A stretch of 64,000 nt of DNA from Pseudomonas profundi. Lineage in GTDB: Bacteria > Pseudomonadota > Gammaproteobacteria > Pseudomonadales > Pseudomonadaceae. Positions within the stretch are counted from its first letter, which is position 1. Each line of letters starts with the position of its first letter. Below the pieces are notes generated by a model. That model was not told where the DNA came from, ran no database searches, and saw nothing but the letters and a program-made list of their open reading frames with translations. The translations under genes and the position numbers were made by a program. The stretch covers positions 1-64,000 of the forward strand of contig NZ_VTPZ01000008.1 in NCBI RefSeq assembly GCF_008638305.1, given 5' to 3'. This document shows positions 2,648-16,997 of this stretch, piece after piece.

Positions 2648-4456
2648 TCATCGGTTTTTTTCGGCGAGATAAGCGCGCCAGCCACCGAAGCGGGTTATAT
2701 CCTCGGCACCTGCCAGACCGTAAGGCTCGCAGATGAATCCCGTCTCCCACCGGCCATTCTCGAGCTGCACCTTGCCCAGTCCCAGGGGCGCGGGTATCCC
2801 AGTCAGAAAGGACCCCAGTTCACTGCTCGGCAACTCCCAGACTTCGACGTCGATGGCTGCGCCATCTTCTGCCACGCGTACCATACCGGGACGATAGGGC
2901 GGGCCGCCGGCCAGGGCGTAGAGCCGGTAATCAGGTGAGCTGCGGGTGGCTTCGACGAGCCGTCCGCCACGTTGTTGCAGTTGCCAGTTGAGCGGCAACC
3001 CTTCCAGATGGGCACCACAGACAACCAGCCGCGCGCGGTCATTGCGCGCTGGCTGCTGCGGTGGCAGAGCGTTGAGCCGGGTTCCGCCGATCAGTGACAA
3101 CCCGTGCTGACGCTGCAAGCTGGCTGCCAGGCTGAGCAGGTACTGGTCGGTAAAGGCGCGTCCGAACAGCGTGACGCCCCAGGGCAAGCCATTGCCCATA
3201 AAGCCTGCCGGTACAGCGACGGCTGCGAAGTCGAGCATGTTCATGAAGTTGGTGTAGTAACCCAGGTCGGCGTTACGCTTGACCGGTTCGGCGTGCAGTT
3301 CATCCAGCGTCACCGGGCGCGGGAAGGCCGGGGTCAGCACACAATCGAGGTCGGCCATGATGGCATCACAGATGGCCTTGAGCTCCTGCAACCGGTACTG
3401 GGCACGAAACGCCTGCACTGCGGTGGTACCCGGCGCCTGTTCGAGCACGGCGCGAATCACCGGCAGCACCGCATCGGGTTGCTGCTCGATCAGCTCCCCG
3501 GCGACGCTATAACGCTCCGCGACCCAGGGCCCTTCATATAACAGCTTGGCTGCTTCCAGAAAGGGTGCGAAATCAATCTCGACCGCTTCGCCGCCCATGG
3601 CTTGCAGATCGCTGATGGTTTTATTGAACATCGCCGGGCTTTCGGCGCAGCCGAGAAACTCGAGCTGCCGGGGTACACCAAAACGGAAAGCGTTTACTGC
3701 GCCGAAGGCTGAACCGTCGTTCCACAGCGGGTTCTTGCGGCTGTACGGGTCACGCGGATCAATTTTGGCAGTGAGCGCCAGCAGCTGGCTGGCTTCCTGC
3801 GCGGTGGCCGCAAAGTACGTCACACAGTCCAGTGTGCGACAGGCCGGAACCACGCCGGCGGTGGACAGCAATCCCTTGCTGGGTTTGAGCCCGACCAGAT
3901 TGTTCAGCGCGGCCGGCACCCGGCCGGAGCCAGCGGTGTCGGTACCCAGTGTAAAACTGGCCACGCCAAGGGCGACGGCCAGTGACGACCCGGCACTGGA
4001 TCCGCCAGAAGGATAATCCGGATGCACGCTGTTGCGGCATTCACCATAGGGCGAACGTGTGCCGTTAAGTCCCGTAGCAAACTGATCCAGATTGGTCTTG
4101 CCCAGCGGAATCGCGCCAAGGGCGATCAGCTGCTCGACCAGCGTAGCACTGCGGTCCGGGGTGTAGGCGAAGGCGGGGCAGGCGGCAGTGGTTGGCACGC
4201 CTGCCAGGTCAATGTTGTCCTTGATGGCAAAGGGCACGCCGAACAGGGGCAGCTCGGCAGGCTGCTTGCCGTCCAGCGCATCCAGATAGGGCTCCAGTTC
4301 GGCCGGGCTGAGCAGATGGATGAACAGGTTGAAGTCCGGGTTCAGGGCTGCGGCCCGGTCGCGCAGGTTGCGTATCAGTTCGCGTGGGGTCAGCTGACCG
4401 TCGCGGTAGGCGAGGCGCAGGGTGTCCAGACGCAGATCAAAGGTATTTATTGGCAT
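2648..4456 (-). CDS. atzF: Allophanate hydrolase (AtzF-type)
   Basis: This 602-residue enzyme hydrolyses allophanate to two ammonia and two CO2, the last step of the pathway. The amidase-signature domain covers about residues 1-450. It holds the catalytic Lys in AIKDNIDLAG (about 90), the cis-Ser in GGSSAGSSLAVA and the nucleophilic Ser in GTDTAGSGRVPAA. The C-terminal domain of about 150 residues (from VVCGAHLEGLPLN) is the extra domain of full-length AtzF-type enzymes and handles the N-carboxy intermediate. It overlaps the carboxylase gene by 10 bp, so translation is probably coupled. It is the last gene of the guanidine-riboswitch operon. Confidence in the enzyme is high. Confidence 0.95.
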   Translation of the reverse strand: MPINTFDLRLDTLRLAYRDGQLTPRELIRNLRDRAAALNPDFNLFIHLLSPAELEPYLDALDGKQPAELPLFGVPFAIKDNIDLAGVPTTAACPAFAYTPDRSATLVEQLIALGAIPLGKTNLDQFATGLNGTRSPYGECRNSVHPDYPSGGSSAGSSLAVALGVASFTLGTDTAGSGRVPAALNNLVGLKPSKGLLSTAGVVPACRTLDCVTYFAATAQEASQLLALTAKIDPRDPYSRKNPLWNDGSAFGAVNAFRFGVPRQLEFLGCAESPAMFNKTISDLQAMGGEAVEIDFAPFLEAAKLLYEGPWVAERYSVAGELIEQQPDAVLPVIRAVLEQAPGTTAVQAFRAQYRLQELKAICDAIMADLDCVLTPAFPRPVTLDELHAEPVKRNADLGYYTNFMNMLDFAAVAVPAGFMGNGLPWGVTLFGRAFTDQYLLSLAASLQRQHGLSLIGGTRLNALPPQQPARNDRARLVVCGAHLEGLPLNWQLQQRGGRLVEATRSSPDYRLYALAGGPPYRPGMVRVAEDGAAIDVEVWELPSSELGSFLTGIPAPLGLGKVQLENGRWETGFICEPYGLAGAEDITRFGGWRAYLAEKNR

Positions 4457-7400
4457 GTTTCACGGACCTCTTCCAGAACGATTACCCGCTGACCGGCTCG
4501 CACGGCTGAACCGGGCTGAACCCGGACTTCACGTACGATCCCGTCGTGGGGCGCGGTAAGCGGAATTTCCATTTTCATTGATTCAAGAATGACCAGCACG
4601 TCGCCTGCCTTGACGGTAGCGCCGGGCTCAACCTGCACCTGCCACAGGTTGCCGGCAATATGGCTTTCGACACTGTGCTGACCCTCTTCAAGCGGGGCGT
4701 TCTCTTCGGGTTCCGGTGCTGGTTCGATGCTCTGATAGTCGGCCTGCCCGGATGCAATCCAGCGCTCGCGTTCGGCGCTGAACGCGGAGCGCTGCTGGGT
4801 ACGAAAATCCCCGATTTCGGATGCTTCACGGTCGAGAAAGGCCTGGTAGTCAGCCAAGGACAATTCGCTGTGTTCGATCTCGAGGTCGAAGCGGCCGAGC
4901 GGGAAGTCGCGGCGAATGCGCAGCAGCTCGTCAGCGGAAACCGGATAGAAACGAATCTGATCGAAGAAGCGCAGCAGCCAGGGCTTGCCATCAAAGGCCG
5001 CGACTTCGCGGTAGCGGTTCCACATTTGCAGAGTGCGGCCTACGAACTGATAGCCACCGGGACCTTCCATGCCGTACACGCACATGTAGGCGCCACCGAT
5101 GCCCACCGAGTTTTCCGCCGTCCAGGTTCGCGCCGGGTTGTATTTGGTCGTCACCAGACGATGACGCGGGTCCAGGGGCGTCGCCACCGGCGCACCCAGA
5201 TACACATCGCCCAGACCCATGACCAGGTAGCTGGCGTCAAATACTGTGCGGTGTACCGCATCAAGATCGGGCAGATCGTTGATCCGGCGAATGAATTCCA
5301 GGTTGCTCGGACACCAGGGCGCATCCTTGCGCACCGTGGTCATGTATTTCTCGATGGCCAGTTGACAGGCCGGGTCGTCCCAGGACAGCGGCAGATGCAC
5401 GATCCGCGACGGCACCTTGAGGTTGTCAGTCGCACAGACCTGATCCCACAGGCCTGTGATGGTCTCCAGCAGCGACGCGAGGGGTAGCGTCTCCGGCTGA
5501 TAATGCACCTGCAGGGAGCGGATGCCGGGGGTCAGATCGATCACGCCGTTGAGTTCTCTGGCTTCCAGCGCCTGCATCAGTGCGTGCCCGCGAAAACGCA
5601 GCACCAGGTCGAGTTCGGCGTCGCCAATTTCCATCAGCAGGTGGGTGTCGCCGGCCAGCCGCGCAACCAAGCGTTTGTCGTCCTGCCCCAGATCCAGAAC
5701 GATCGGTGAGCACAGTTCAGGCACGGCGAGATCGGCGGCTTGCTGGGAAGGCTGTGGCTGCAGGCTGGCGCATTCCGCGTTCATTGTGCGGGCCAGGTTG
5801 CGGGCAGTATCAACCGACACCGGTACGAACCGGATCTTGTCGCCGGCCTTGAGCTGGCCAAGCTGCCACAGGTCTGCCTCGATGACCGTTACCGGGCAGA
5901 CGAACCCGCCGAGACTGGGGCCATCCGGCCCCAGGATCACCGGCATGTCGCCGGTGAAATCCACGGCACCGATGGCGTAGGGGTTGTCATGAATATTGGA
6001 AGGATGCAGCCCGGCTTCGCCACCACTGTCGCGGACCCACTCGGGGTTGGGACCTATCAGTCGCACACCGGTCCGGCTGGAGTTGAAGTGCACCTCCCAG
6101 GCTGTCGCGAAGAAGGTATTGATGTAGTTATCGGTAAAGTATTCCGGCGCACCATGGGGTCCGTATATGACGCGGATCTCGCGCACTTCCGGGAGATCAC
6201 CCAGCAGCTCGCCTGGCAGGCTTGCACCGACAGATGTGTTCTCAAGCGGGGCCAGGTGCAGTACGTCGCCGGCCCGCAGGGCGCGACCACCGTGGCCGCC
6301 GAACTGGCCGAGAGTAAAGGTGCTCTTGCTGCCCAGGTAGTTCGGCACTTGCAGCCCACCGCGCACGCACAGGTAACTGCGCGCGCCGGTGCCGGCGATG
6401 GTGCCCAGTGTCAGCACGCTGCCAGCCGTTACCAGCAGCGCGGTGGCCATGGGTTGCTCAATACCGTCCAGCTTGACCGGCAGAGGCGCACCGGTCACGG
6501 CGATCACCGCATCGGTATTGAAGCGCAGAGACGGGCCGCTCATGGTTATTTCCAGGCCGGCGGCATCTGCGTCATTGCCCAGCAACGTATTGCCCAGGCG
6601 CAGGGCGCGGCTGTCCTTCGGACCTGAGGGCGGGACGCCGACGGCCCAGTAACCCAGCCGGCCGGGATAGTCCTGCACGGTGGTCTGGGTGCCAGCGCTC
6701 AGCACTTCGAACGTGGTGGCCTGGTATTCCAGCTGTTCCAGGCAACGGGTCCAGGGCGAGCCGCTGGCAAAGGGCGTGTCGGCTAGAATCTGCCGTAAGT
6801 AGTCGCGGTTGGTCTCGACGCCATACAGCGTGGTGTCTCCCAGGGCAGTGTCGAGGCCGGCGCTGGCGGCGTCCCGGGATTCGGCCCAGCTGATTACCTT
6901 GGCAATCATCGGATCGAAATACGGCGGGATTTCGCATCCGGCTTCGACCCAGGTATCAATGCGCAGCTGTCTGCCATCGGCATTCGGGAAGTCGACTGCT
7001 GTGAGCAGCCCCGGGCTCGGTTGAAAGTCGCGACCCGGATCTTCGGCGTACAGCCGCGCCTGAATAGCATGACCCTTGGGCTGCAGCGACTGTGCCAGCG
7101 TGGACAGTGGCGCCAGGTCGCCAGCGGCCAGTTCCACCATCCAGCGCACCAGATCAACGCCCCATACCTGCTCGGTAACGCCGTGCTCGACCTGAAGGCG
7201 GGTGTTCACTTCGAGAAAATAAAACTGCTGGGCATCGCCGTCGTATACAAATTCCACAGTGCCGGCGCTGCGGTACTTCACCGCTTCGCCGAGCTGGATG
7301 GCGGCCTGGCACAAGGCTTCGGCCATGCCGGAGGGAAGATTGGGTGCGGGGGTTTCTTCCAGCACCTTCTGGTTGCGCCGCTGAACCGAGCAGTCGCGCA

Positions 7401-8073
7401 CGCCCAGGGCAATCACCTCGCCCTGGCCGTCACCGAATACCTGCACCTCCAGGTGACGGGCGCGCTGGATGTATTTCTCGATGAATACGCCCGCGTCACT
7501 GAAGTTGTTCTGCCCGAGCCGCTTGACGGCTTCGAAGGCTTCACTGAGCTCTTGTTCGCTGTTACACACCCGCATGCCGATGCCGCCACCGCCAGCGGTG
7601 CTCTTGAGCATTACCGGATAGCCGATCTGAGCGCTGGCGGTCAGGGCAGCATCCAGGCTGTCGAGCAGCTCGGTGCCTTCGAGTAGCGGTACATTGTGCT
7701 GTTTGGCCAGCGCGCGGGCAGTGTGCTTCAGACCGAAGACGCGCAGTTGCTCCGGTGTCGGGCCGATGAAGGCGATACCGACCGCCTCGCAGGCTTCGGC
7801 AAAGGCCGCGTTTTCGGATAAAAACCCGTAGCCTGGGTGAATAGCCTGGACGCCGTTGGCCTGAGCGATGCCGAGTATCTTGTCCACGGCCAGGTAGGTG
7901 CCGGTCGCAGGGCCCTCGCCGAGACTGTATGACTCATCGGCTTGCTGAATATGCAGGCTGGCGGCATCGGCTTCGGAATAGACCGCGACACCTTTCACGT
8001 CGAGTTGGCTCAGGGTACGTAGAATGCGGCAGGCGATGGCCCCGCGATTGGCAATAAGCAGTGTGTCGAACAT
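4447..8073 (-). CDS. Biotin-dependent urea/guanidine carboxylase (probably guanidine carboxylase)
   Basis: A 1208-residue multidomain enzyme. The biotin carboxylase domain with ATP-grasp fold occupies about residues 1-450 (MLKSTAGGGGIGMRV is the glycine loop). The carboxyltransferase part, related to KipA and KipI, spans about 460-1110. A C-terminal biotinyl domain carries ESMKME, with the biotinylated lysine near residue 1167. The family carboxylates urea or guanidine with ATP and bicarbonate. Because guanidine riboswitches lie before the operon and directly before this gene, and two DUF1989 proteins precede it, guanidine is the likely substrate, giving carboxyguanidine. The start at 8073 has a GAGGG ribosome-binding site seven bases upstream. 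An in-frame extension to 8127 would read through the riboswitch and is rejected. The urea-versus-guanidine assignment rests on context. Confidence 0.93.
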   Translation of the reverse strand: MFDTLLIANRGAIACRILRTLSQLDVKGVAVYSEADAASLHIQQADESYSLGEGPATGTYLAVDKILGIAQANGVQAIHPGYGFLSENAAFAEACEAVGIAFIGPTPEQLRVFGLKHTARALAKQHNVPLLEGTELLDSLDAALTASAQIGYPVMLKSTAGGGGIGMRVCNSEQELSEAFEAVKRLGQNNFSDAGVFIEKYIQRARHLEVQVFGDGQGEVIALGVRDCSVQRRNQKVLEETPAPNLPSGMAEALCQAAIQLGEAVKYRSAGTVEFVYDGDAQQFYFLEVNTRLQVEHGVTEQVWGVDLVRWMVELAAGDLAPLSTLAQSLQPKGHAIQARLYAEDPGRDFQPSPGLLTAVDFPNADGRQLRIDTWVEAGCEIPPYFDPMIAKVISWAESRDAASAGLDTALGDTTLYGVETNRDYLRQILADTPFASGSPWTRCLEQLEYQATTFEVLSAGTQTTVQDYPGRLGYWAVGVPPSGPKDSRALRLGNTLLGNDADAAGLEITMSGPSLRFNTDAVIAVTGAPLPVKLDGIEQPMATALLVTAGSVLTLGTIAGTGARSYLCVRGGLQVPNYLGSKSTFTLGQFGGHGGRALRAGDVLHLAPLENTSVGASLPGELLGDLPEVREIRVIYGPHGAPEYFTDNYINTFFATAWEVHFNSSRTGVRLIGPNPEWVRDSGGEAGLHPSNIHDNPYAIGAVDFTGDMPVILGPDGPSLGGFVCPVTVIEADLWQLGQLKAGDKIRFVPVSVDTARNLARTMNAECASLQPQPSQQAADLAVPELCSPIVLDLGQDDKRLVARLAGDTHLLMEIGDAELDLVLRFRGHALMQALEARELNGVIDLTPGIRSLQVHYQPETLPLASLLETITGLWDQVCATDNLKVPSRIVHLPLSWDDPACQLAIEKYMTTVRKDAPWCPSNLEFIRRINDLPDLDAVHRTVFDASYLVMGLGDVYLGAPVATPLDPRHRLVTTKYNPARTWTAENSVGIGGAYMCVYGMEGPGGYQFVGRTLQMWNRYREVAAFDGKPWLLRFFDQIRFYPVSADELLRIRRDFPLGRFDLEIEHSELSLADYQAFLDREASEIGDFRTQQRSAFSAERERWIASGQADYQSIEPAPEPEENAPLEEGQHSVESHIAGNLWQVQVEPGATVKAGDVLVILESMKMEIPLTAPHDGIVREVRVQPGSAVRAGQRVIVLEEVRETCQ

Positions 8074-8095: not shown

Positions 8096-8140
8096 GCGGG
8101 CCGTCCCGCTTTTATCTTCTGCACCACGGTCGTCCGTGGT
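8096..8140 (-). ncRNA. Guanidine-II (mini-ykkC) riboswitch before the carboxylase gene
   Basis: On the minus strand two GC-rich hairpins lie in tandem. The first has stem ACCACGG/CCGTGGT (8140-8134 and 8129-8123) closing the tetraloop ACGA. The second has stem GCGGG/CCCGC (8109-8105 and 8100-8096) closing ACGG. The linker is 13 nt and A-rich. Two hairpins with ACGR loops closed by G-C pairs are the defining signature of guanidine-II riboswitches, which turn gene expression on when guanidine binds. The element fills the 78-bp gap between the second DUF1989 gene and the carboxylase, with the carboxylase ribosome-binding site just downstream. An internal riboswitch lets the carboxylase and allophanate hydrolase respond separately from the upstream genes. 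Confidence 0.9.
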
Positions 8141-8151
8141 TGGTCGATCAG

Positions 8152-8784
8152 TCAGTCCCAGACCAGCACCTGTGCCGGCGTCGGGTTATAGGCATTGCAG
8201 GGGTTGTTCAGCTGCGGGCAGTTGGAGATCAGCACAATGATGTCCATGTGCGCCTGCAGCTCGACATATTTGCCCGCAGCGGAAATGCCATCTTCGAAGG
8301 TCAGGCCGCCTTCACTGGTCACCGGAACGTTCATGAAGAAGTTGATATTTGCGCCGATATCGCGCTTGTCCAGACGTCCATCAGTGAGGCAGGCGCGCAG
8401 GAAGTTATCCCGGCAGCTGTGCATGTAGCGCTTGTCCAGCGCGTAGCGCACGGTGTTGCTTTCCTGCGCGCAGGCGCCGCCCAGAGTGTCATGCCGGCCG
8501 CAGGTATCGGCGACAATGCTCAGCAGCGGGTTGCCCAGGTTGGAATAGAGCACCGTCCCGGTGGTCAGGTAGACGCGGTTCTGCCTGCGCAGGGTGCGCT
8601 GCGGATCGAAGCGTTCGCGCGGGTTGGCCGCGCTGAAGAACAGGGTATCGACAGCCTGGTTGCCCTCCAGGTCAAGCAGGCGCAGCGTCTGGCCTGCCTT
8701 TATTTCGAACAGGAAGGGCTCACCTGCGGGGATGGTGGCCTGGTAAACGGCGGCTTCGGGATGTCTTTCGCTTGCGGTAATCAT
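8152..8784 (-). CDS. DUF1989 protein UAAP2, probable carboxyguanidine deiminase subunit
   Basis: A 210-residue DUF1989 protein of the 'urea carboxylase associated protein 2' type. The conserved [14 protein letters not shown] block and the later [11 protein letters not shown] and [10 protein letters not shown] segments are diagnostic; the Cys and His are likely zinc ligands. Members of this pair form carboxyguanidine deiminase (CgdAB), which converts carboxyguanidine to allophanate and ammonia. I prefer the ATG at 8784, which has AGGGGAG six bases upstream; an ATG at 8802 overlapping the preceding stop is also possible. It sits between its partner and the internal guanidine-II riboswitch. The family is certain; which Cgd letter applies I leave open. 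Confidence 0.92.
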
Positions 8785-8794
8785 CTCGGCTCCC

Positions 8795-9523
8795 CTAGAC
8801 ATAGAGTCGTTCAGTGTTATGGAAACCCCGGCTATTCTCCGGGCGCGAGGTCCGACAGAGCACGGTAATGCCGTCGCTCTCGATCTGATGCCAGCTGAGC
8901 TGTATTGGGCGCGGATCGTAGGCCGGGTTGGGGTCCATCGGATGCTGCAGGGCGGTCAGAATCACCAGGCTGTCCATGGGCGCATAGAGTTCGATGTAGT
9001 CGCCGGGTTTCGAGTTGCCCGGGGCAAATTCGAAGCAGCCATCGGCGTCCACATTGACCCGGCTGAACAGGTTGAGGGTCATCAGCAGGTCCTGCTGGTT
9101 GAGGTTCCACTTACCCATCTCCACCAACAAATTGTCATGACCGTTGCGGTAGAAACCGTTGCGCAGCTCCTGGTAGCGGCCCTGGCCGTACTTCTCCGCG
9201 GTCTCTGCTGCGTTGAGCACGCCGCCAAAGCTGTCATGCCAGCCGCAACTGTCGGCGGTAATCGCTGCCAGTACCCGGCCCATGTCCGAGTACAGGCAAT
9301 GGCCGGCGGTGAGCCTGGCGGTGTGCTGGCCTTTCAAGGTATCGGGCAGGTTCAGCCGCTCGCTCTTTTCATGCGCGTTGAGCAGCATCAGGCTGACGTT
9401 TGCGTCGCCCTGGGGATCTGTGATGCGTAGCAATTGCCCACGTTTGAGCACGAAGGAGGTATGGCCGCCCCCGGGGACGGTTTCCTCGTACAAGGTGGGA
9501 CGTAGAGTCAGTTCAGCGGTCAT
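8795..9523 (-). CDS. DUF1989 protein UAAP1, probable carboxyguanidine deiminase subunit
   Basis: A 242-residue DUF1989 protein of the 'urea carboxylase associated protein 1' type, paralogous to the gene that follows. Shared landmarks are [22 protein letters not shown] near the N-terminus, the CGWHDSFGG block with probable metal-binding Cys and His, [14 protein letters not shown], and the [15 protein letters not shown] strand. With UAAP2 it forms the deiminase that turns carboxyguanidine into allophanate, the step absent from a true urea pathway. AGGAG lies before the ATG. It follows the ATPase gene by 10 bp and precedes UAAP2 by a similar gap, so it is in the same operon. Confidence 0.92.
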
Positions 9524-9533
9524 GTGAAGCTCC

Positions 9534-10352
9534 TTACGCAGCTGAATTCAGGCTATGGACGATATGTTCAGGTAACGACTCGACAGCGGTGCGGGCAGCC
9601 AGACGATTGCTGTTGAGCGGAATGTCGTAGGTGATGCGGGCGCCATAGGCGTGCGGGGCATCGGGGTCGATGCGCGGCTTGTCGAACACCATCAGCCGCG
9701 TGCCGAGCGTGAACCCTTCGGACAGATCATGGGTCACCATGAAAACGGTCAGGCGGGTCTCCTGCCACAGCTCAAGCAGCAGGCTGTGCATGTCCTTGCG
9801 AATGCCCGGATCCAGCGCGCCGAAGGGCTCGTCGAGTAACAGAATGCGCGGCTTCATGATCAGCGCCTGGGCGATCGCCAGGCGCTGCTGCATGCCGCCG
9901 GATAGCTGCGCCGGGTATTTGTCCAGCGCATGACCCAGGCCCACCTTGTTGAGAATCGCTGCCGCCTGGTCGCGAACATCGCGCTTCGCACGGCCAAACA
10001 GCCTGCCGAACAGCGGCGCTCTGGGGAGTTCCAGGCCCAGCGCGACGTTATCCAGCACGCTCAGGTGCGGTAGCACCGAGTAACGCTGAAAGACTACGCC
10101 GCGGCTGGCGTCGGGCTCGCCTTGGAGAGGCTGCCCGTCGAGCAGGATTTCGCCACGGCTGGGGATTTCCTGGCCCAGCAGCATGCGCAGGAAGGTCGAC
10201 TTGCCGCAGCCGGAGGTGCCGACCAGGGTGCAGAACTCGCCTTCTGCAAAGGTCAGATTCAAGCGCTCCAGGACAACCTGATCGCCGTACTGCTGCCAGA
10301 CGTTTTTCACCTGAATAAAGGGCGGCGGCGTAGCGGGGGTAGTGTCATTCAT
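9534..10352 (-). CDS. ABC transporter ATP-binding protein, guanidine/urea-type uptake
   Basis: The 272-residue ATPase is of the nitrate/taurine (TauB/SsuB) class. It shows Walker A GTSGCGKST (about residue 45), signature LSGGMQQRLAIAQAL, Walker B ILLLDEPFGALD and the switch His in MVTHDLSEG. It powers uptake through the permease encoded upstream. The start at 10352 has GAAGGAG upstream and overlaps the permease stop as ATGA, so translation is coupled. A longer reading frame continues upstream but has no ribosome-binding site and lies inside the permease. The substrate is inferred from the riboswitches and neighbours; annotators usually call this the urea-carboxylase-region transporter. Confidence 0.94.
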   Translation of the reverse strand: MNDTTPATPPPFIQVKNVWQQYGDQVVLERLNLTFAEGEFCTLVGTSGCGKSTFLRMLLGQEIPSRGEILLDGQPLQGEPDASRGVVFQRYSVLPHLSVLDNVALGLELPRAPLFGRLFGRAKRDVRDQAAAILNKVGLGHALDKYPAQLSGGMQQRLAIAQALIMKPRILLLDEPFGALDPGIRKDMHSLLLELWQETRLTVFMVTHDLSEGFTLGTRLMVFDKPRIDPDAPHAYGARITYDIPLNSNRLAARTAVESLPEHIVHSLNSAA

Positions 10353-11164
10353 GACTTGGCTCCTTCGTACCAGGGGAATGCCAGGCGAATCAGGCCGCGC
10401 AGACCGAAGTCCATGGTCCAGGCGAGCAGGGTGATCCAGGCGACGTAAGGCAGGATGACGTCCATGGACATGTAGCGCCGTACCAGAAAGATGCGGTAGC
10501 CCAGGCCGTCGGTGGCGGCGATGGCTTCGGCGGCAATCAGGAACAACCAGGCCGACCCCAGCACCAGCCGCAGGCTGATCAGCAGGCGCGGCAACAGTTG
10601 CGGAAGAATGACCCGCAGGATCAACGTCCAGGTATTGGCGCCGAGGGTCTGTGCCTTGATCAGTAATTCCTGAGGGATCTCTCTGGCGCGCTGTTCCAGA
10701 TCGCGGGCAATGATCGGCGTTATCCCGATCACGATAAGCATTACCTTGGACAGTTCCCCCAGCCCGAACACGATGAACAGGATAGGCAGCAGGGCCAGTG
10801 GTGGAACCATCGATAGCACCGCCAGCAGCGGGGAAAGCGTTGCACTGAACAGCGGGATGGCGCCGGCTGCGACACCCAGACACAGGCCAACCAGGGCGGC
10901 TATGCTCAGGCCGATCGCAATGCGTTGCAGGCTGGATGCAGTGTCCTGCCAGAACAGGTATTCGCCGGTACGCCGGTCCGGCTGCAGCGCCAAATTATCC
11001 ATCGCTGTGGTCATCTGCGCCGGGCTTGGCAACAGTTTGTCGCTCGGGTTGATTTCCAGGCGCTGGGCTGAATAGGACAGGTACACCAGTACCAGCAGGG
11101 CGAAGGGCAGCAGGAGCAGGAGCAGCCTGCCGGGTTTACCGGGGCGGACGTTGATCAGGCGCAT
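10349..11164 (-). CDS. ABC transporter permease, guanidine/urea-type uptake
   Basis: A 271-residue inner-membrane permease of the TauC/SsuC class with about six membrane segments. It carries the cytoplasmic EAA-like loop (LIKAQTLGANTWTLILRVILPQLLP) that contacts the ATPase. It matches the permeases found beside 'urea carboxylase' genes. I chose ATG 11164 (MRLINVRPGK), immediately before the first hydrophobic segment; an in-frame ATG at 11242 gives a 26-residue polar extension without a ribosome-binding site. The site before 11164 is weak (GGGGG), and a leader frame with a strong site ends across this start codon. The gene is the first membrane component after the guanidine-I riboswitch. Its binding protein lies in the divergent operon. 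Confidence 0.9.
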   Translation of the reverse strand: MRLINVRPGKPGRLLLLLLPFALLVLVYLSYSAQRLEINPSDKLLPSPAQMTTAMDNLALQPDRRTGEYLFWQDTASSLQRIAIGLSIAALVGLCLGVAAGAIPLFSATLSPLLAVLSMVPPLALLPILFIVFGLGELSKVMLIVIGITPIIARDLEQRAREIPQELLIKAQTLGANTWTLILRVILPQLLPRLLISLRLVLGSAWLFLIAAEAIAATDGLGYRIFLVRRYMSMDVILPYVAWITLLAWTMDFGLRGLIRLAFPWYEGAKS

Positions 11165-11268
11165 GGCGCTGGCCCCCGCTGTCCGCCAAGGGTACCAGGA
11201 GGTGGGTTGGCAATCGCGGTTCTGTTGCGGCGCGGGACCCATCGTAATTCGGGTGCTGATCGGCGCAT
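11155..11268 (-). CDS. Possible 37-residue leader peptide upstream of the permease
   Basis: An ATG at 11268 has a strong ribosome-binding site (TGGAGG, 11280-11275) right after the riboswitch region. It opens a 37-codon frame that ends with TGA at 11157-11155, overlapping the permease start at 11164 in another frame. The peptide (MRRSAPELRW...) is arginine- and proline-rich and resembles nothing I know. The arrangement suggests translational coupling of the weakly initiated permease to a leader frame. It may instead be chance, or reflect a sequencing or evolutionary frameshift in the permease N-terminus. Confidence 0.35.
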   Translation of the reverse strand: MRRSAPELRWVPRRNRTAIANPPPGTLGGQRGPAPCA

Positions 11269-11280
11269 GTTTGACCTCCA

Positions 11281-11316
11281 GTTTTAGGCATGACGCACGG
11301 AGCTGCGCTCTAAAAC
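11281..11316 (-). promoter_or_regulatory. Inverted repeat between riboswitch and first ribosome-binding site
   Basis: On the minus strand GTTTTAG (11316-11310) is repeated inverted as CTAAAAC (11287-11281), with additional GCGCA/TGCGT pairing inside. It follows the guanidine-I aptamer directly and ends one base before TGGAGG. This position suits an expression platform. I see no terminal T-tract, so control of translation is more likely than transcription termination. Confidence 0.45.
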
Positions 11317-11317
11317 G

Positions 11318-11412
11318 CTATTCTCCCGGGCTTTTGTCCCGCCGTGTAACCTCACTGGAGGTCGCCAACTCTCGGACCAGTCACTCGTGTTGCGAGCCGG
11401 AACCCTAGTCAG
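11318..11412 (-). ncRNA. Guanidine-I (ykkC) riboswitch heading the minus-strand operon
   Basis: The minus strand carries the conserved blocks of the ykkC class in correct order and spacing: CTAGGGTTCCG (11408-11398), ACTGGTCCGAGAG (11381-11369), and a third block at 11347-11322 that starts ACACGGCGGGA and ends AAAAGCCCGGGAGA. The class binds free guanidinium and turns on export or degradation genes. Here it lies about 160 nt before the permease start and so controls the permease, ATPase, both DUF1989 genes, the carboxylase and the allophanate hydrolase. The match to the core is close to perfect, with one base (C for the usual T in GGGATAAAA) differing. Confidence 0.95.
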
Positions 11413-11754
11413 CCATTTTTGATTCGCAGCTTCCTGCACCAGAGACATAGCAATCGCCATGCCAGCGCTCGAAAAAGAGGCGTGGCCTCCCGGTTGGCGT
11501 GTGCTGCGCAGCGTTGAAGGGGTCACTGGTCCGCTGGCCGTGCCCTGTTTTGGGATCAAATAGCGCACCGAGGGCGAGCATTGATGCGCCGTTTTGGTGC
11601 GTTGTTGCCGGCAGAATCAGCTATCGGATGCTTACAGATACTCCGGGATGGGGCACGCCGCGCGTTATCAGTCGATGGGCTGGGTCAATGGTATGAGTCT
11701 TGCTTTATCTCAGACATCACGGCGCTGCTTGGCCGTGTGGCTACATGCTGAGCT
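11413..11754. other. Divergent control region between the two guanidine operons
   Basis: About 340 bp separate the two riboswitches that head the divergent transcripts. Both promoters should lie here, but I could not identify convincing -35/-10 pairs or a regulator site. I see no protein-coding frame with a ribosome-binding site. Confidence 0.5.
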
Positions 11755-11846
11755 TCCCGGGACGACCCGGGGCGATCAGGCAGCAGGTCCAGGCTATTTG
11801 TACCAGACATGTTTGCTCCGTTCGCATTAGTCCTGGACGACCAGGT
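11755..11846 (+). ncRNA. Second guanidine-II (mini-ykkC)-like riboswitch, before the oxygenase gene
   Basis: Two hairpins have the ACGA tetraloop typical of guanidine-II RNAs. Hairpin 1 is CCCGGG (11756-11761), ACGA, CCCGGG (11766-11771). Hairpin 2 is CCTGG (11832-11836), ACGA, CCAGG (11841-11845). The linker is nearly 60 nt, longer than in the copy at 8096-8140 and in examples I know, which is the main caution. TCCTG at 11831-11835 can instead pair with CAGGA at 11866-11870, the ribosome-binding site of the oxygenase gene. Ligand-stabilised hairpin 2 would therefore free that site, an ON switch. The hairpins are seen; the switching is inferred. Confidence 0.8.
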
Positions 11847-11878
11847 GACATCTCGATTATCCGAACAGGAGGTGACCC

Positions 11879-12937
11879 ATGGCGTCTGAAGAGTCGCGCG
11901 CTCGTACCACCCATTCCGCTTTCACCAGCCTCCCGGTTGTAGACGTATCCGGACTGTTTTCGGCCGATCCGGCTGCGCGCATGGAAACAGCCACGCACCT
12001 TGGAAAGGGAGCGAAGGATGCAGGCTTTCTCTATATCACCGGGCACGGCGTGCCCCAGGCACTGATTGACAGGTTGGTGGCCCGCACACAGGAATACTTT
12101 GCACAGCCGATAGAAGAAAAGATGCGTCACTATATCGGTCACTCGAATAACCACAGCGGCTATGTGCCTGAGGGGGAGGAGCAGTTCTCTTCCGGCACCA
12201 TCGACCACAAGGAAGCCTATGACCTCGGGTTTGATCTGGACCAACGCGAGCGTCGCCGACCGATGTTGGGACCGAACCAGTGGTCGGATATGCCCGGTTT
12301 CAAGGAGGACGTAAAAGCCTACTACGATGCGGTGCTTGCCCTGGGCAGTCAGCTGTTCAAAGGCTTTGCGCTGGCGCTGGGCCTGCCCGAGGACGGCTTC
12401 AGCCGCTATGTTACGACCCCACCAAGCCAGCTCCGGCTGATTCATTATCCGTTCAACCCCGACGCGGCAGACCGCCCCGGTATTGGTGCGCACACTGATT
12501 ATGAGTGCTTCACCATCCTGCTGCCGACAGCTCCAGGCCTGGAGGTACTCAACGGCGCCGGAGAATGGATTGATGTACCGCTGGTTGAAGGGGCCTTTGT
12601 CATCAACATCGGCGACATGCTCGAAGTGCTCAGCAACGGGATGTATGTCGCCACCTCGCACCGGGTGCGCAAGGTTGCCGAGGAACGCTATTCGTTCCCG
12701 CTGTTTTGCGCCTGTGATTACGACACGCTGATTGCACCGGTGCCCGAGCTGTTAAGCGAGTCAGCACCGGCGCGTTACGAGCCCGTACGCTGTGGTGACC
12801 ATCTGTTTGCGCAGACGGTGCAGACATTCGGCTACCTCAAGCGCCGCCTCGAAACCGGCGAACTATCGATGCCGGAGGGTGCCCGCGGCCTCGCTTCCTT
12901 TGGACATCAGGGACGCAAGCAGGGGGAAACGGCATGA
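11879..12937 (+). CDS. 2-oxoglutarate/Fe(II)-dependent oxygenase, isopenicillin-N-synthase-like
   Basis: This 352-residue enzyme has the N-terminal DIOX_N part (LPVVDVSGLF, then GFLYITGHGVP) and the double-stranded beta-helix core. The iron ligands are His and Asp of GAHTDYECF (about residue 205) and His of TSHRVRKV. The 2-oxoglutarate-binding Arg-x-Ser is in ERYSFPLF. These enzymes hydroxylate or desaturate small molecules using O2 and 2-oxoglutarate. A strong GGAGG ribosome-binding site and a guanidine-II-like riboswitch lie directly upstream. Related oxygenases, such as the ethylene-forming enzyme, hydroxylate arginine and release guanidine, so a guanidino compound is a reasonable candidate substrate here. 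That assignment is inference from context. It overlaps the next gene by 4 bp (ATGA). Confidence 0.92.
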   Translation: MASEESRARTTHSAFTSLPVVDVSGLFSADPAARMETATHLGKGAKDAGFLYITGHGVPQALIDRLVARTQEYFAQPIEEKMRHYIGHSNNHSGYVPEGEEQFSSGTIDHKEAYDLGFDLDQRERRRPMLGPNQWSDMPGFKEDVKAYYDAVLALGSQLFKGFALALGLPEDGFSRYVTTPPSQLRLIHYPFNPDAADRPGIGAHTDYECFTILLPTAPGLEVLNGAGEWIDVPLVEGAFVINIGDMLEVLSNGMYVATSHRVRKVAEERYSFPLFCACDYDTLIAPVPELLSESAPARYEPVRCGDHLFAQTVQTFGYLKRRLETGELSMPEGARGLASFGHQGRKQGETA

Positions 12938-13881
12938 CGTTGCAGGAATTGCTGGAAAGGTATCCGCAGCGCGCAAGCAGCGGTGTACCAGACTGGATGC
13001 TCGGGTATTTCCGACGCCGCGCTATCAGTTTTGCCAATGGCCAGACTGACACCACCACCACGGTGTGCTGGATTCAGAGTCGCACTTTCACCATCGACCT
13101 GCGTTTGCCAATAGCGCAGGCGCAGCCGCCACACCGGGAATGGGTCGACTACCTGCCTGCAGAGCTTGAGGTGCTCGCCAACTACGAAGGCTGGGCAGCG
13201 GACTCCGAATGGACCGGCGAAACGCTGAGCTGGCATGGCGAATCCTCGCTGCAATTGCACAACCGCTGGCCGGAGCCGGCCCTATTGCAGCGCGTCGGTA
13301 ACTGCATGATCGAGTTCGCACCCAGCGGGGCCTATGTCGAAGACTGGCGCTTGCAGCCGTCGCCTCCTGGGCCCCTGATCGGTTTGAGACTGATCGAGGA
13401 GCGGGATTTGGACACCGGCGTGCGTCGGCATCGCGGTGGCGGGCTTATCATCTGTGGCGACCATGCCGCGCTGGTGCTTGGGCGCGCTGATGATCTCATA
13501 CCGCATAGCGCAAGCGGGTTATTGCGCGACGAGGTAGCCGAGGCCGCTGGCGATGCCGAGCGCCTGGCCCATCTGTTCAACTTCGAGACCTCCGTGGCAT
13601 CGGGTTCGATAACCACGGGCTATCGCGTCGAACATTCGACCTGTCCGGCCCGAGTCGGGCAGATCCTGTGTCCTCTGGATGGATTCGAATATCTCCCCGA
13701 CTCCCATCAGGTCGTTCAGCAACTGACCATCGAGGGCTCGCGCTGTGAACGGCGCTTCGCTGTCGACACTATTGAAGCAGCAATCAGTTTTAAACAGACC
13801 ACCGGCTTCAGCGAAGACGCTGCCGCCTGGTATGACCACGAATCCCCAACCCTGACCCGCTATACCGAGCCGCATTACTGA
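12934..13881 (+). CDS. Unrecognised 315-residue protein in the guanidine locus
   Basis: I do not recognise a family with confidence. The protein has no signal peptide or membrane segment and looks beta-rich. It contains two segments of similar style, ISFANGQTDTTTTVCWIQS then FTIDLRLP (about 30-60) and MIEFAPSGAYVEDWRL (about 125-140), as if built of two barrel-like halves. It also has many acidic, Trp and His residues but no obvious catalytic motif. Its start overlaps the oxygenase stop as ATGA, so the two proteins are made together and may act together. The substrate-binding protein gene follows 42 bp downstream. A role in processing or sensing a guanidino substrate is possible but rests only on position. 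Confidence 0.85.
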   Translation: MTLQELLERYPQRASSGVPDWMLGYFRRRAISFANGQTDTTTTVCWIQSRTFTIDLRLPIAQAQPPHREWVDYLPAELEVLANYEGWAADSEWTGETLSWHGESSLQLHNRWPEPALLQRVGNCMIEFAPSGAYVEDWRLQPSPPGPLIGLRLIEERDLDTGVRRHRGGGLIICGDHAALVLGRADDLIPHSASGLLRDEVAEAAGDAERLAHLFNFETSVASGSITTGYRVEHSTCPARVGQILCPLDGFEYLPDSHQVVQQLTIEGSRCERRFAVDTIEAAISFKQTTGFSEDAAAWYDHESPTLTRYTEPHY

Positions 13882-13923
13882 GGCCGGGGCGGCATCCTTT
13901 TATTGATGCACGAGGTAATTACG

Positions 13924-14997
13924 ATGTTGAAAACGTCAATCTGGAAATGGGCGGCCGTGCTGGCTACCAGTCTGTGCCTGGCAACCGGCGCGGTGGCCAA
14001 CGAGAAGAAGCAGAGTTTCAAGGTCGCCTGGTCGATCTACGCAGGCTGGATGCCCTGGGCCTATGCAGCGGATTACGGCATTGTCGACAAGTGGGCAGAC
14101 AAGTACGGCATCGAGATCGAGGTGGTGAAATTCAACGATTACATCGAGTCGATCAACCAGTACACCATGGGTGCCTTTGACGCCTGCGGCATGACCAATA
14201 TGGACGCTCTGACCATACCGGCGGCTAGCGGGGTGGATACTACCGCGCTGATTCTTGGTGATTACTCCAACGGCAACGACGGCGTGCTGCTGAAGAACGG
14301 CTCCAGCATGGAGGACATTCGCGGTCAGCAGGTCAATCTGGTTGAGCTGTCCGTATCCCATTATCTGCTGGCGCGGGCCCTGGAAGAACATGGCATGTCC
14401 GAGCGCGACATCAAGGTCATGAACACTTCGGACGCAGACGCCGTCGCCTCTTTCATGACGCCGGACGTGACGGCTGCGGCGGTATGGAACCCGCAGTTGA
14501 GCCTGATCAAGCAGCAGTCATCCGATGCAGTCCAGGTATTTGATTCCACCCAGATTCCGGGTGAGATCATCGACATGATGGCGGTCAATACGGACGTGTT
14601 GAAGGCAAATCCGGAGCTGGGCAAGGCGCTGGTGGGGGCCTGGTTCGAGACGCTGGAGCTGATGTCCGGTGATAGTGATGAAGCGAAGGCCGCCCGTACC
14701 TATATGGCCGAGCAAGCGGGAACAGATCTGGCGGGTTTTGACGCTCAGCTGGCTGAAACCATGCTGTTCTACACGCCTGCCGATACCCATGCTTTTGCTA
14801 CCGATCCAGCTCTGCGCGAGACCATGGACAAGGTGCGGTTGTTCTCCTTCGACAAGGGATTGCTGGGCAGTGGTGCGCCCAGTCCGGACGTGGTCGGGAT
14901 GGAGTTTGCCGATGGTTCGGTACTTGGAAACAGCGGCAACGTGCAGTTGCGGTTTGATCCGACCTATGTACGGATGGCGATGGATGGGAAGTTGTAA
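13924..14997 (+). CDS. ABC transporter substrate-binding protein, guanidine/urea-type uptake
   Basis: A 357-residue periplasmic binding protein of the NMT1/taurine-binding type. It matches the binding proteins found beside 'urea carboxylase' genes. A signal peptide (MLKTSIWKWAAVLATSLCLA, cleaved after AVA) leads to FKVAWSIYAGWMPWAYAADYG, and GAFDACGMTNMDAL contributes to the ligand pocket. I chose ATG 13924, with GAGG eight bases upstream, over an upstream in-frame ATG at 13903. It should deliver substrate to the permease and ATPase of the divergent operon. Separation of the binding protein from its transporter genes is unusual for this cluster. It sits third in the operon controlled by the plus-strand riboswitch. 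Confidence 0.93.
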   Translation: MLKTSIWKWAAVLATSLCLATGAVANEKKQSFKVAWSIYAGWMPWAYAADYGIVDKWADKYGIEIEVVKFNDYIESINQYTMGAFDACGMTNMDALTIPAASGVDTTALILGDYSNGNDGVLLKNGSSMEDIRGQQVNLVELSVSHYLLARALEEHGMSERDIKVMNTSDADAVASFMTPDVTAAAVWNPQLSLIKQQSSDAVQVFDSTQIPGEIIDMMAVNTDVLKANPELGKALVGAWFETLELMSGDSDEAKAARTYMAEQAGTDLAGFDAQLAETMLFYTPADTHAFATDPALRETMDKVRLFSFDKGLLGSGAPSPDVVGMEFADGSVLGNSGNVQLRFDPTYVRMAMDGKL

Positions 14998-15011
14998 CGC
15001 GGCGCAATGAT

Positions 15012-15055
15012 GTGATCCGACCCGGTGCATGCTCATCGGGCCGGATTCACTTGTT
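15012..15055 (+). terminator. Probable Rho-independent terminator
   Basis: GTGATCCGACCCG (15012-15024) pairs with CGGGCCGGATTCAC (15037-15050) apart from one bulge and one mismatch, and TTGTTAC follows. It lies in the 70-bp gap between the ends of two converging genes, so it probably terminates the binding-protein operon and may act in both directions. Confidence 0.7.
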
Positions 15056-15067
15056 ACAACGCGAGGT

Positions 15068-15988
15068 TCAGGCGGAAGCCTCGACCTCGTAGTTGGCGTA
15101 CGATTGTTTCAACGTGGCGTGGTTGAGTAGCATCTGTGCCTTGAGCGTAGACCCTGTGGAGTCGTAGATGTGGGTACGTACCCAATACGATTCGGTTCGC
15201 TTGCTCTCGGATAGCGCGACTATCTCGCGGCGAATCAGGTAATCCTCACCTACGAAGAGGGGGCCGTCGATCATGCGAATTTCCTGATCGGCGAACAGGC
15301 CGACTACAGGCTGTTTGACGGGAAAGGCCGCCTGCTTGCTGGTGTATTCAGCGAGCACGCTGACCATCTCCAGTGGAATGATTGCGCGGCCCCAGGGCGT
15401 GGTTTGCGCATCCGAATACCAGGGCGAATTCTCGGTGATCCGTTCGAGTTTCTGATTGAGCGAAAACGGATACAGGTGGCCCATATGCTGGTCCGCATCC
15501 ATCCGCACGTGCTCTTCCTCCGCGCCGCGCATGCCCAATTTCAGCTCAGACAGGATGACCAGCTTCTCCGGCGGGCGCAGTTTGGCCATACGCTCTTCCA
15601 GCAGGGTGGGGCCGTCGTCCGAACCCAGGCTGGCGCTCGCTTCCAGAACCGGTGTGCCATCGGCCTTTTCTGCCCAGCAACGTACCCGATTCGAGCCTGC
15701 GGTGGGCCGTTCGACGAATGCGCGCACCTGCTCACCCTCGACCACCATGTTCTGGAAATGCGAAGAGAAACAGCCGCGCTCGAACCAGGCTTGTCCGAAT
15801 ATCTCGACCAAGAGCGGAACGAACTGACTGAAGTGCGTCGGGCCTTCGATCGGCCCCGCTCGGAAGCCAAGCTTTTCCGCCATGCTGTCGTCGTGGATCG
15901 AGGTATGGCCGCTGTATTCCTGATCGGCCAGCATCTGGCGGGGCTCGCGCAAGGGGCCACAAAGGTAGAGTGGGGAGTCAAAACTCAT
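15068..15988 (-). CDS. MaoC-like hotdog-fold protein
   Basis: A 306-residue protein built like two hotdog domains. The N-terminal part contains GPIEGPTHFSQFVPLLVEIFG, the surface that carries catalytic Asp/His in MaoC dehydratases, and the C-terminal part repeats the beta-strand pattern from FPVKQPVVGLFADQEIRMID. Related proteins hydrate or dehydrate acyl-CoA-like substrates, but I cannot point to a full catalytic pair, so activity is uncertain. The start at 15988 is 31 bp downstream of the nitronate monooxygenase gene, so the two form one transcription unit, perhaps for breakdown of an unusual acyl compound. Confidence 0.72.
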   Translation of the reverse strand: MSFDSPLYLCGPLREPRQMLADQEYSGHTSIHDDSMAEKLGFRAGPIEGPTHFSQFVPLLVEIFGQAWFERGCFSSHFQNMVVEGEQVRAFVERPTAGSNRVRCWAEKADGTPVLEASASLGSDDGPTLLEERMAKLRPPEKLVILSELKLGMRGAEEEHVRMDADQHMGHLYPFSLNQKLERITENSPWYSDAQTTPWGRAIIPLEMVSVLAEYTSKQAAFPVKQPVVGLFADQEIRMIDGPLFVGEDYLIRREIVALSESKRTESYWVRTHIYDSTGSTLKAQMLLNHATLKQSYANYEVEASA

Positions 15989-16019
15989 GGAAATCTCCGT
16001 TGTTATTCTTGACCGCAGA

Positions 16020-16997
16020 TCAACCGTTCAGCATGCCGGCCAGACGATCACGAATCAGGCCTTCAGCTTCGGCCATGATGCGGTCGACCAGTACTTGAAC
16101 CGTGGGCACGTCATTGATGAGGCCAGCCACCATGCCGCAGGACCATGCGCCGGCATCCATCTCGCCGGTTTTCATGATGCGCGGGTAAACGCCTGCTACT
16201 TCCTCGGCGATGTCGGCGAACTTGAGCTCAGAGCCCAGGCGGCGCTCTTTTTCCAGCAGGCGCTCTACCGCTTCGTTGGTCATCACGCGCTCGGTGTTGC
16301 GCAGCGGACGCATGACCAGGCGGGTGTCCAGTTCGCTGGCGGCGACAATCGCTTGCTTTACGTTTTCGTGAACGGGCGCTTCACGAGTAGCAATAAACCG
16401 CGTGCCCATGTTCATGCCGTCGGCTCCCAGCGCCAGCGCAGCAACCAGCGAGCGCCCGTCGGCCATTCCGCCTGATGCGACAAAGGGGATTTCCAGCTCT
16501 TCCGCTGCACGGGGCAGCAGAATGAAGTTGGGCACATCGTCTTCGCCCGGGTGGCCGCCACACTCAAAGCCGTCGACGCTGACAGCATCGCAACCAATGG
16601 CCTGAGCCTTGAGTGCATGACGAACGGCGGTGCATTTGTGGATGACCTTGATGCCTGCTTTCTTCAGCGCAGGCAGATATTTTTGCGGGTTATTGCCGGC
16701 GGTTTCTACGACCTTCACGCCGCCCTTGATGATGGCTTCGATATAGCCGGGGTAATCCGGCTGATTGACTGAGGGCAGGAAGGTCAGGTTGACGCCGAAG
16801 GGCTTGTCGGTCATCTCGTGGCAACGGCGAATTTCTTCGGCAAGCGCCGCCGGATTTGGCTGGGTGAGGGCGGTGATCATGCCCAGGCCGCCGGCATTGG
16901 CGACGGCGGAAGCAAGCTCGGCGTAGCCGACGTGATGCATACCGCCCTGAATGATCGGATGCTGAATACCAAAGAGTTCTGTTATGCGTGTTTTCAT
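16020..16997 (-). CDS. Nitronate monooxygenase (2-nitropropane dioxygenase family)
   Basis: A 325-residue flavoprotein with a TIM barrel. Family landmarks are LFGIQHPIIQGGMHHVGYAELASAVANAGGLGMI at the N-terminus, the FMN phosphate site around FVASGGMADGRSLVAALALGADGMNMGTRF, and CDAVSVDGFECGGHPGEDDV, which holds the usual catalytic His. Such enzymes oxidise alkyl nitronates with FMN and O2; close relatives are FabK-like enoyl reductases, so the exact substrate is open. It is the first gene of a two-gene unit with the hotdog protein. Length is normal for the family. Confidence 0.88.
   Translation of the reverse strand: MKTRITELFGIQHPIIQGGMHHVGYAELASAVANAGGLGMITALTQPNPAALAEEIRRCHEMTDKPFGVNLTFLPSVNQPDYPGYIEAIIKGGVKVVETAGNNPQKYLPALKKAGIKVIHKCTAVRHALKAQAIGCDAVSVDGFECGGHPGEDDVPNFILLPRAAEELEIPFVASGGMADGRSLVAALALGADGMNMGTRFIATREAPVHENVKQAIVAASELDTRLVMRPLRNTERVMTNEAVERLLEKERRLGSELKFADIAEEVAGVYPRIMKTGEMDAGAWSCGMVAGLINDVPTVQVLVDRIMAEAEGLIRDRLAGMLNG

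Follow-up and report, generated by a model that had tools for sequence, protein, structure and literature searches.

A probable methylguanidine-demethylation unit with a guanidine-II-like leader beside the guanidine-carboxylase operon of Pseudomonas profundi

Organization of the mgdHL locus

The DNA analyzed here, referred to as the window, is a 64,000-nucleotide (nt) stretch of the Pseudomonas profundi contig NZ_VTPZ01000008.1. It contains a gene unit, mgdHL, which probably encodes the enzymes for the demethylation of methylguanidine. The initial annotation had joined a 2-oxoglutarate (2OG) oxygenase, a 315-residue protein coupled to it by an ATGA overlap and a transporter binding protein into one unit. 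All three open reading frames (ORFs) are present on the same strand (Table 1). The ATG start codon of mgdL (12934–12936) overlaps the TGA stop codon of mgdH (12935–12937), and an alternative TTG start of the binding-protein ORF is open at position 13903. A promoter and terminator scan of the region 11250–15100 revealed nothing above chance.

The placement of this unit divergent from a complete guanidine-degradation operon is borne out by protein family matches and by calls of guanidine-I (Gd-I) and guanidine-II (Gd-II) riboswitches. The order on the minus strand is Gd-I riboswitch, ABC permease, ABC ATPase, UAAP1, UAAP2, Gd-II riboswitch, carboxylase and allophanate hydrolase. The guanidine-carboxylase pathway is complete here, since gca, cgdA/B and atzF are all present together with the guanidine riboswitches.

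Table 1. Features of the mgdHL unit and of the divergent guanidine-carboxylase operon in the window
Feature	Position	Strand	Evidence or remark
P1 hairpin of the mgdH leader, ACGA loop, guanidine-II type	11755–11772	+	
P2 hairpin of the mgdH leader, ACGA loop	11832–11845	+	59-nt linker after P1; 33 nt to mgdH start
Probable mgdH Shine-Dalgarno region (CAGGAGGT)	11866–11873	+	From sequence
mgdH	11879–12937	+	352 aa; 2OG/Fe(II) oxygenase, probable methylguanidine hydroxylase; Pfam, invariant residues, tree
mgdL	12934–13881	+	315 aa; probable N-(hydroxymethyl)guanidine lyase; D55/R57 correspond to published D49/R51
ABC substrate-binding protein, mgdHL-linked group	13924–14997	+	357 aa; TIGR03427, tree
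Guanidine-I riboswitch	11321–11419	-	88.3 bits
ABC permease	10349–11242	-	Pfam BPD_transp_1
ABC ATPase, part of the 9534–10883 ORF	9534–10358	-	NCBIfam matches, ORF residues 182–409
UAAP1 (carboxyguanidine hydrolase subunit CgdA)	8795–9523	-	TIGR03425
UAAP2 (CgdB)	8152–8802	-	TIGR03424
Guanidine-II riboswitch before gca	8097–8141	-	42.4 bits
gca, guanidine (urea-type) carboxylase	4447–8070	-	TIGR02712, 1885 bits
atzF, allophanate hydrolase	2648–4456	-	TIGR02713

The oxygenase and its partner protein

The precedent for this gene pair comes from Vreelandella boliviensis. According to Sinn et al. (Nat Commun, October 2025; PMC12508155), the 2OG oxygenase MgdH and the hypothetical protein MgdL of this organism demethylate methylguanidine in two steps, their genes lie between gca and atzF, and MgdL requires the residues D49 and R51.

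The product of the window mgdH gene contains the Pfam domains DIOX_N and 2OG-FeII_Oxy. Its residues H205, D207, H261 and R270 are invariant in all nine aligned sequences; we take the first three to form the HxD...H motif and R270 to be the 2OG-binding arginine. Window MgdL has no Pfam or NCBIfam match. Its residues D55 and R57 align with the published D49 and R51 and are invariant in 14 of 14 aligned MgdL-like proteins, a selection of those at hand that are 27–59% identical to window MgdL. In two loci of one family from the surveyed order (L059 and L149; L numbers denote loci), gca, mgdH and mgdL form one run and the MgdL Asp and Arg stand exactly at positions 49 and 51. The L059 run goes directly into atzF, as published, and L149 has other genes before atzF. 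These two loci are hereafter called the published type.

The AlphaFold2 model of MgdL, built from 10 sequences, shows a beta-barrel fold (pLDDT 86.4, pTM 0.87). The best structural match is the yeast protein YLR301w (Hri1, PDB 3rby; Z 14.2 over 200 residues, rmsd 3.4 Å), followed by lipocalin-like barrels at Z 11.1 and lower. In Foldseek, the single match at E ≤ 0.001 had a TM score of 0.14–0.15, and the lipocalin-like 4qrl was ranked fifth with a probability of 1.00 and a TM score of 0.71 by target length. Matches to PF16815 (HRI1) were found below the cut-off in three of 10 tested MgdL-like proteins (E 2.1e-5, 4.8e-5 and 0.042), which are distant from window MgdL and mutually similar; window MgdL itself has no PF16815 match. 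Searched against PDB sequences, window MgdL gave nothing up to E 10, and as a profile it gave one chance-level match (E 0.12), Hri1 being unlisted. No MgdL relative was detected in viral contigs.

MgdL-like proteins that are only distantly related but keep the Asp-x-Arg motif and match HRI1 weakly are encoded at L056, L057 and L058 (about 5.9–6.7 kb), with ABC transporter genes alongside. The L056 gene adjoins a creatininase gene (TIGR04448) and another ORF, presumably for an isochorismatase. At E 1e-80, two of the three genomes gave no MgdH-like match, and the third, G100, has a TIM-barrel-partnered one elsewhere. L055 (5013–6774) holds a distant pair, whose MgdH-like and MgdL-like members show ~39% and ~31% identity over the matched parts. 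ABC transporter genes follow this pair, and an ORF ~3.5 kb upstream of it encodes what we assume to be an arginase-family enzyme.

The leader RNA of mgdH

The initial annotation described the unit as riboswitch-controlled. A two-hairpin leader conserved in relatives does precede mgdH (11755–11845), but it lies below the Rfam threshold: in a permissive scan the two RF01068 matches, of 22.7 and 13.1 bits, each took in only one of the hairpins and fell short of the gathering score of 32. For this reason the leader is termed Gd-II-like and not RF01068. The P1 core CGGGACGRCCCG occurs at two places in the window against 0.02 expected, the second being the known Gd-II riboswitch before gca, and the P2 core CTGGACGRCCAG occurs at one place against 0.03 expected.

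Paired GC-rich hairpins with ACGR loops precede 22 of the 23 stand-alone mgdH genes partnered by mgdL, a count in which L011 is the leaderless 23rd locus and from which L137, L013 and L055 are left out; they also precede the orphan mgdL of L005. Nearly all leaders have the stems CGGG/CCCG in P1 and CUGG/CCAG in P2. The P1 core is kept in most relatives, most of which also have the P2 core CUGGACGRCCAG. L005 and L006 differ in P1 by a change from G-C to A-U on both sides of the pair, and L012 differs in both hairpins, again on both pair sides, with UUGG/CCAA in P2; these paired changes were judged by eye. The linker between P1 and P2 measures 59 nt in the window, 57 in L001, 58 in L051 and 8–30 in the remaining 20 of the 23 leaders. 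For L043–L054 the mgdH start was set close to the tblastn match, which makes the spacing between P2 and the start codon approximate in these loci.

A stringent pattern, consisting of the exact P1 and P2 cores with a linker of 8–38 nt, was scanned in 390 genomes of the window's order with the reversed pattern as a control. It matched once in each of 11 genomes, every time directly 5′ of mgdH, and the reversed control gave no match. The window and L051 have identical cores with linkers of 59 and 58 nt, so that all 13 stand-alone loci of the order survey carry the leader. A looser pattern (GGACGRCC twice) matched in 167 of the 390 genomes and was dropped because the reversed control gave as many or more matches in many genomes.

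At the gathering score, Rfam called none of the mgdH leaders of L001–L007, L025–L034, L043–L048, L050 and L051, and no Gd-I riboswitch was seen on the mgdH strand ahead of mgdH in the scans of the window and these loci. The permissive scan of six loci (L010 being the window copy) placed RF01068 at the leaders with 18.9 to 26.5 bits. A nine-row alignment of the leaders was poor, in part due to the shortened L002 row. Minimum-energy folding of single sequences, run with no shuffled control, pairs part of the ribosome-binding region with upstream sequence, the partner varying by locus. We infer that the leader may act as a switch.

Distribution of the mgdHL unit

Relatives of MgdL were found at nine named loci in genome contigs, in three of 72,556 plasmid records and in 18 of the 390 genomes. 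MgdH-like proteins (E ≤ 1e-80) are encoded at 27 loci in 23 of these genomes. Fifteen of the loci adjoin mgdL (13 stand-alone and two following gca) and 12 do not; 11 of the mgdL-less loci (L138–L148) adjoin a gene for a TIM-barrel protein similar to that of L013. Among 399 genomes of the order of L005, only G573 has an MgdH-like match. The oxygenase also matched 331 plasmid records, mostly at less than 40% identity among the matches listed. The locus counts are not independent events, because several loci are near relatives (L052–L054, L047–L049 and L004/L008).

The mgdHL unit lies beside a gca operon in L001, L006 and L007. L001 comes from Pseudomonas saliphila, and its versions of the three proteins of the unit show 92–96% identity. 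Five loci (L002, L003, L004, L008 and L009) have no gca operon within ~10 kb of mgdHL, yet all five carry the leader. Full-length Gca was found in six of six genomes in which it was sought, namely those of the five loci and of L005. On the Acinetobacter plasmid L012, atzF, a carboxylase gene and UAAP2 are annotated within 13 kb of mgdHL. The neighborhood survey proposed with the initial annotation was thus positive: elsewhere, too, the oxygenase occurs together with leaders resembling guanidine riboswitches and with guanidine genes. The stand-alone mgdH–mgdL unit occurs in Pseudomonas-like and other Proteobacteria, an arrangement that is new compared with the published one.

Further observations concern genes and sequences next to these units. 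Directly after mgdL, L012 carries a gene of the SMR transporter family (12891–13220), which may encode a guanidine exporter. A long inverted repeat 3′ of mgdL in L028 (3662–3767) gave a sub-cut-off microRNA-family score on both strands and is probably a repeat element or a chance match. Downstream of the window unit, on the minus strand (15068–16997), lie a 306-aa ORF with no Pfam match and a 325-aa ORF, whose product we take to resemble nitronate monooxygenase; both ORFs are kept in L001.

The substrate-binding protein

The third protein of the unit matches TIGR03427, a family of the “putative urea” type, with 528 bits against a cut-off of 334. In the genome containing the window (4.2 Mb, 56 contigs, completeness 100) the only match to this protein is the copy of the mgdHL unit. 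No binding-protein gene was seen within the divergent carboxylase operon, and because of this and of the single match in the genome the two operons probably share one importer.

Homologous binding-protein genes lie 3′ of mgdL in 10 of the 23 stand-alone loci (L001–L004, L008, L043–L046 and the window), at a distance of ~650 nt from mgdL in L004 and L008. In a tree that is midpoint-rooted only, these 10 mgdHL-linked proteins fall on one side of a branch (support 99/96) and 12 gca-linked proteins on the other; the second binding protein of L048 lies outside both groups. In five genomes the gca operon includes a binding-protein gene of its own (L101–L105), and four of them, the exception being the genome of L009, also encode an mgdHL-linked one. 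The window genome has the mgdHL type only. On the basis of this tree and distribution, a separate ligand preference of the mgdHL-linked binding proteins is plausible.

Proposed pathway and alternatives

It is very likely, judging from sequence comparison, that the window unit is a substrate-induced methylguanidine-demethylation module that feeds the carboxylase operon. MgdH would hydroxylate the methyl group of methylguanidine using O2 and 2-oxoglutarate, and MgdL would act as an N-(hydroxymethyl)guanidine lyase on the hydroxylated product. The released guanidine would enter the neighboring carboxylase operon, and formaldehyde would be oxidized. Two genes of the genome exceed the TIGR02818 cut-off; they speak for this pathway only weakly, since such genes are common. 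The binding protein may load guanidine or methylguanidine onto the permease and ATPase encoded by the opposite operon. The initial annotation had proposed a guanidine-releasing 2OG oxygenase that feeds the adjacent operon, and this part of it is most likely right. It had also regarded the pathway as new, but MgdH and MgdL were published in kind in October 2025 (PMC12508155).

The two-hairpin leader would act as an ON switch of the guanidine-II type, sensing both methylguanidine and guanidine. Switches of this class bind the two compounds about equally well (PMC12508155; PMC5486947), whereas the Gd-I switch of V. boliviensis does not bind methylguanidine (PMC12508155). These properties suggest a cascade of substrate induction followed by product induction, in which the substrate would open mgdHL and uptake, and guanidine would then open the carboxylase operon through Gd-I and Gd-II. 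The positive feedback by guanidine that had been proposed earlier is not needed, because substrate induction through a switch that binds methylguanidine about as well as guanidine is enough.

Several observations weigh against this assignment. In a tree of 40 MgdH sequences the stand-alone enzymes form a clade (99/96) separate from the published type, which groups with the TIM-partnered enzymes at weak support (84/73). Window MgdH is 56–57% identical to the published type, which is no higher than its identity to the TIM-partnered enzymes (50–58%), and family identity alone does not fix the substrate, because proteins of 50–58% identity sit in other gene contexts. The structure model of MgdH is poor (pLDDT 67) and its pocket is unreadable. 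Window MgdL is only ~27% identical to the published-type proteins, and the published type is represented here by L059 and L149 on the strength of their gene arrangement. At L005 (10001–10930), an mgdL gene preceded by a Gd-II-like leader diverges from a gca operon, but the genome gave no match to MgdH. In Novosphingobium (L011) mgdHL lacks the leader, and the annotation, which is incomplete, lists no guanidine gene within 12 kb. L137 (6394–7419, reverse complement) encodes an MgdH of the stand-alone clade; this gene has no leader, and neither mgdL nor a TIM-barrel gene was matched in the 14 kb of sequence covered.

The divergence of both proteins from the published type also favors the alternative that the same chemistry acts on another N-alkyl guanidine, such as dimethylguanidine or a larger N-alkyl or guanidino compound, with guanidine still being released. 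In line with this, N,N-dimethylguanidine is also a substrate of the published MgdH (PMC12508155), and the pocket of guanidine-II can accommodate agmatine (PMC5486947). However, the published MgdL is narrow for N-(hydroxymethyl)guanidine, and the published Gd-II switch gave no response to dimethylguanidine (PMC12508155). Furthermore, eight group-separating positions of MgdH are common to the window clade and the published type as opposed to the TIM-partnered group, against two that are common to the published type and the TIM group as opposed to the window clade; five more are peculiar to the published type. For this comparison the TIM group was taken without L013 and L148 but with L014, where a TIM gene is presumed. 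We therefore regard another substrate as unlikely.

In the reaction favored by the initial annotation, arginine, homoarginine or a related compound would be hydroxylated beside its guanidino nitrogen, guanidine would be released spontaneously and a positive feedback would follow. This reaction agrees with the closest solved chain to MgdH, 9ovh_A (E 8.8e-61), which is named an ethylene/succinate-forming enzyme, but it gives no role to the conserved lyase-like partner, and the binding protein is of the “putative urea” and not of the arginine type. Since the partner is related to the published lyase, and given the published specificity, methylguanidine is the likelier substrate and the arginine-type reaction is highly improbable. 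The accompanying list of guanidino compounds to be assayed holds up insofar as methylguanidine was on it. Least probable of all, to the point of being nearly negligible, is a coincidental neighborhood of an oxygenase unit functionally unrelated to guanidine: it would fit the five loci with no nearby gca operon, but the same five genomes carry this operon elsewhere and the leader is present at each locus.

The methylguanidine pathway leaves room for a further specialization, in which the leader would be a distinct guanidine-II subclass preferring methylguanidine to guanidine and the mgdHL-linked binding proteins would be methylguanidine importers. We consider this conceivable but doubtful. A leader with such a preference would, to our knowledge, be the first methylguanidine riboswitch. 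In the literature searched we recognized no description of a methylguanidine-specific variant or of a TIM-barrel partner, a statement that extends no further than this search.

TIM-barrel-partnered relatives

The oxygenases with a TIM-barrel partner (L138–L148 and L013) are 49–60% identical to that of the window. The partner belongs to PF01261 and is xylose-isomerase-like, as seen in L144 and L013. L144 also encodes a guanidinobutyrase-like protein of the arginase family (best PDB match 3nio, E 9.3e-165), a family-3 binding protein and a class II aldolase, and L138 and L143 have ORFs with beginnings like those of L144. In the Paraburkholderia locus L013 (9099–11038) the oxygenase and TIM-barrel genes are neighbors of a gca operon that has Gd-I and Gd-II riboswitches, and in L148 the pair encloses a guanidine-type binding protein that is 52% identical to that of the window. 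The L013 and L148 oxygenases keep seven and six, respectively, of the eight window-type residues. The ACGR hairpin pair is absent before 12 of 12 TIM-partnered loci, L013 having one lone weak hairpin. It is possible, as far as these sequences indicate, that the TIM-barrel protein is an unrelated lyase and that MgdH relatives use two unrelated partners for the same kind of lyase step. The TIM-partnered system is the most open lead of this study.

Comparison with known systems

What is new here is the arrangement, the leader and the possible specialization of the binding proteins; the pathway itself has already been published in kind. The published pathway is extended from Vreelandella and Salinisphaera, the genera covered by the original paper (PMC12508155), to Pseudomonas-like and other Proteobacteria. 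The questions posed there, whether methylguanidine serves as a real nutrient in nature and how cells distinguish it from guanidine, become directly testable. If the leader and the binding proteins are indeed specialized, methylguanidine would be a regular nutrient in the environment. The leader form is an addition for riboswitch searches, and MgdL may offer a hint to the function of proteins with the Hri1 fold. MgdL resembles yeast Hri1 (PF16815) in fold at the level of the model, with 12% sequence identity.

Like guanidine-II (mini-ykkC, RF01068), the mgdH leader consists of two GC-rich ACGR hairpins near the ribosome-binding site of a guanidine-related gene. It differs in the linker, which in the window exceeds the range of 7–40 nt given in PMC7544219. 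The combination of P1 CGGG/CCCG and P2 CUGG/CCAG was found in the 390-genome scan only directly before mgdH, whereas the P1 core alone is also present in the ordinary Gd-II riboswitch before gca.

As in V. boliviensis, the window has an oxygenase and a partner protein beside guanidine carboxylase genes and riboswitches, and the Asp-x-Arg of MgdL is conserved. In V. boliviensis the two genes are part of one operon, between gca and atzF; in the window they stand apart as a divergent unit that has a Gd-II-like leader and a binding-protein gene of its own. Window MgdL is ~27% identical to the proteins of the published arrangement, and window MgdH belongs to a separate clade.

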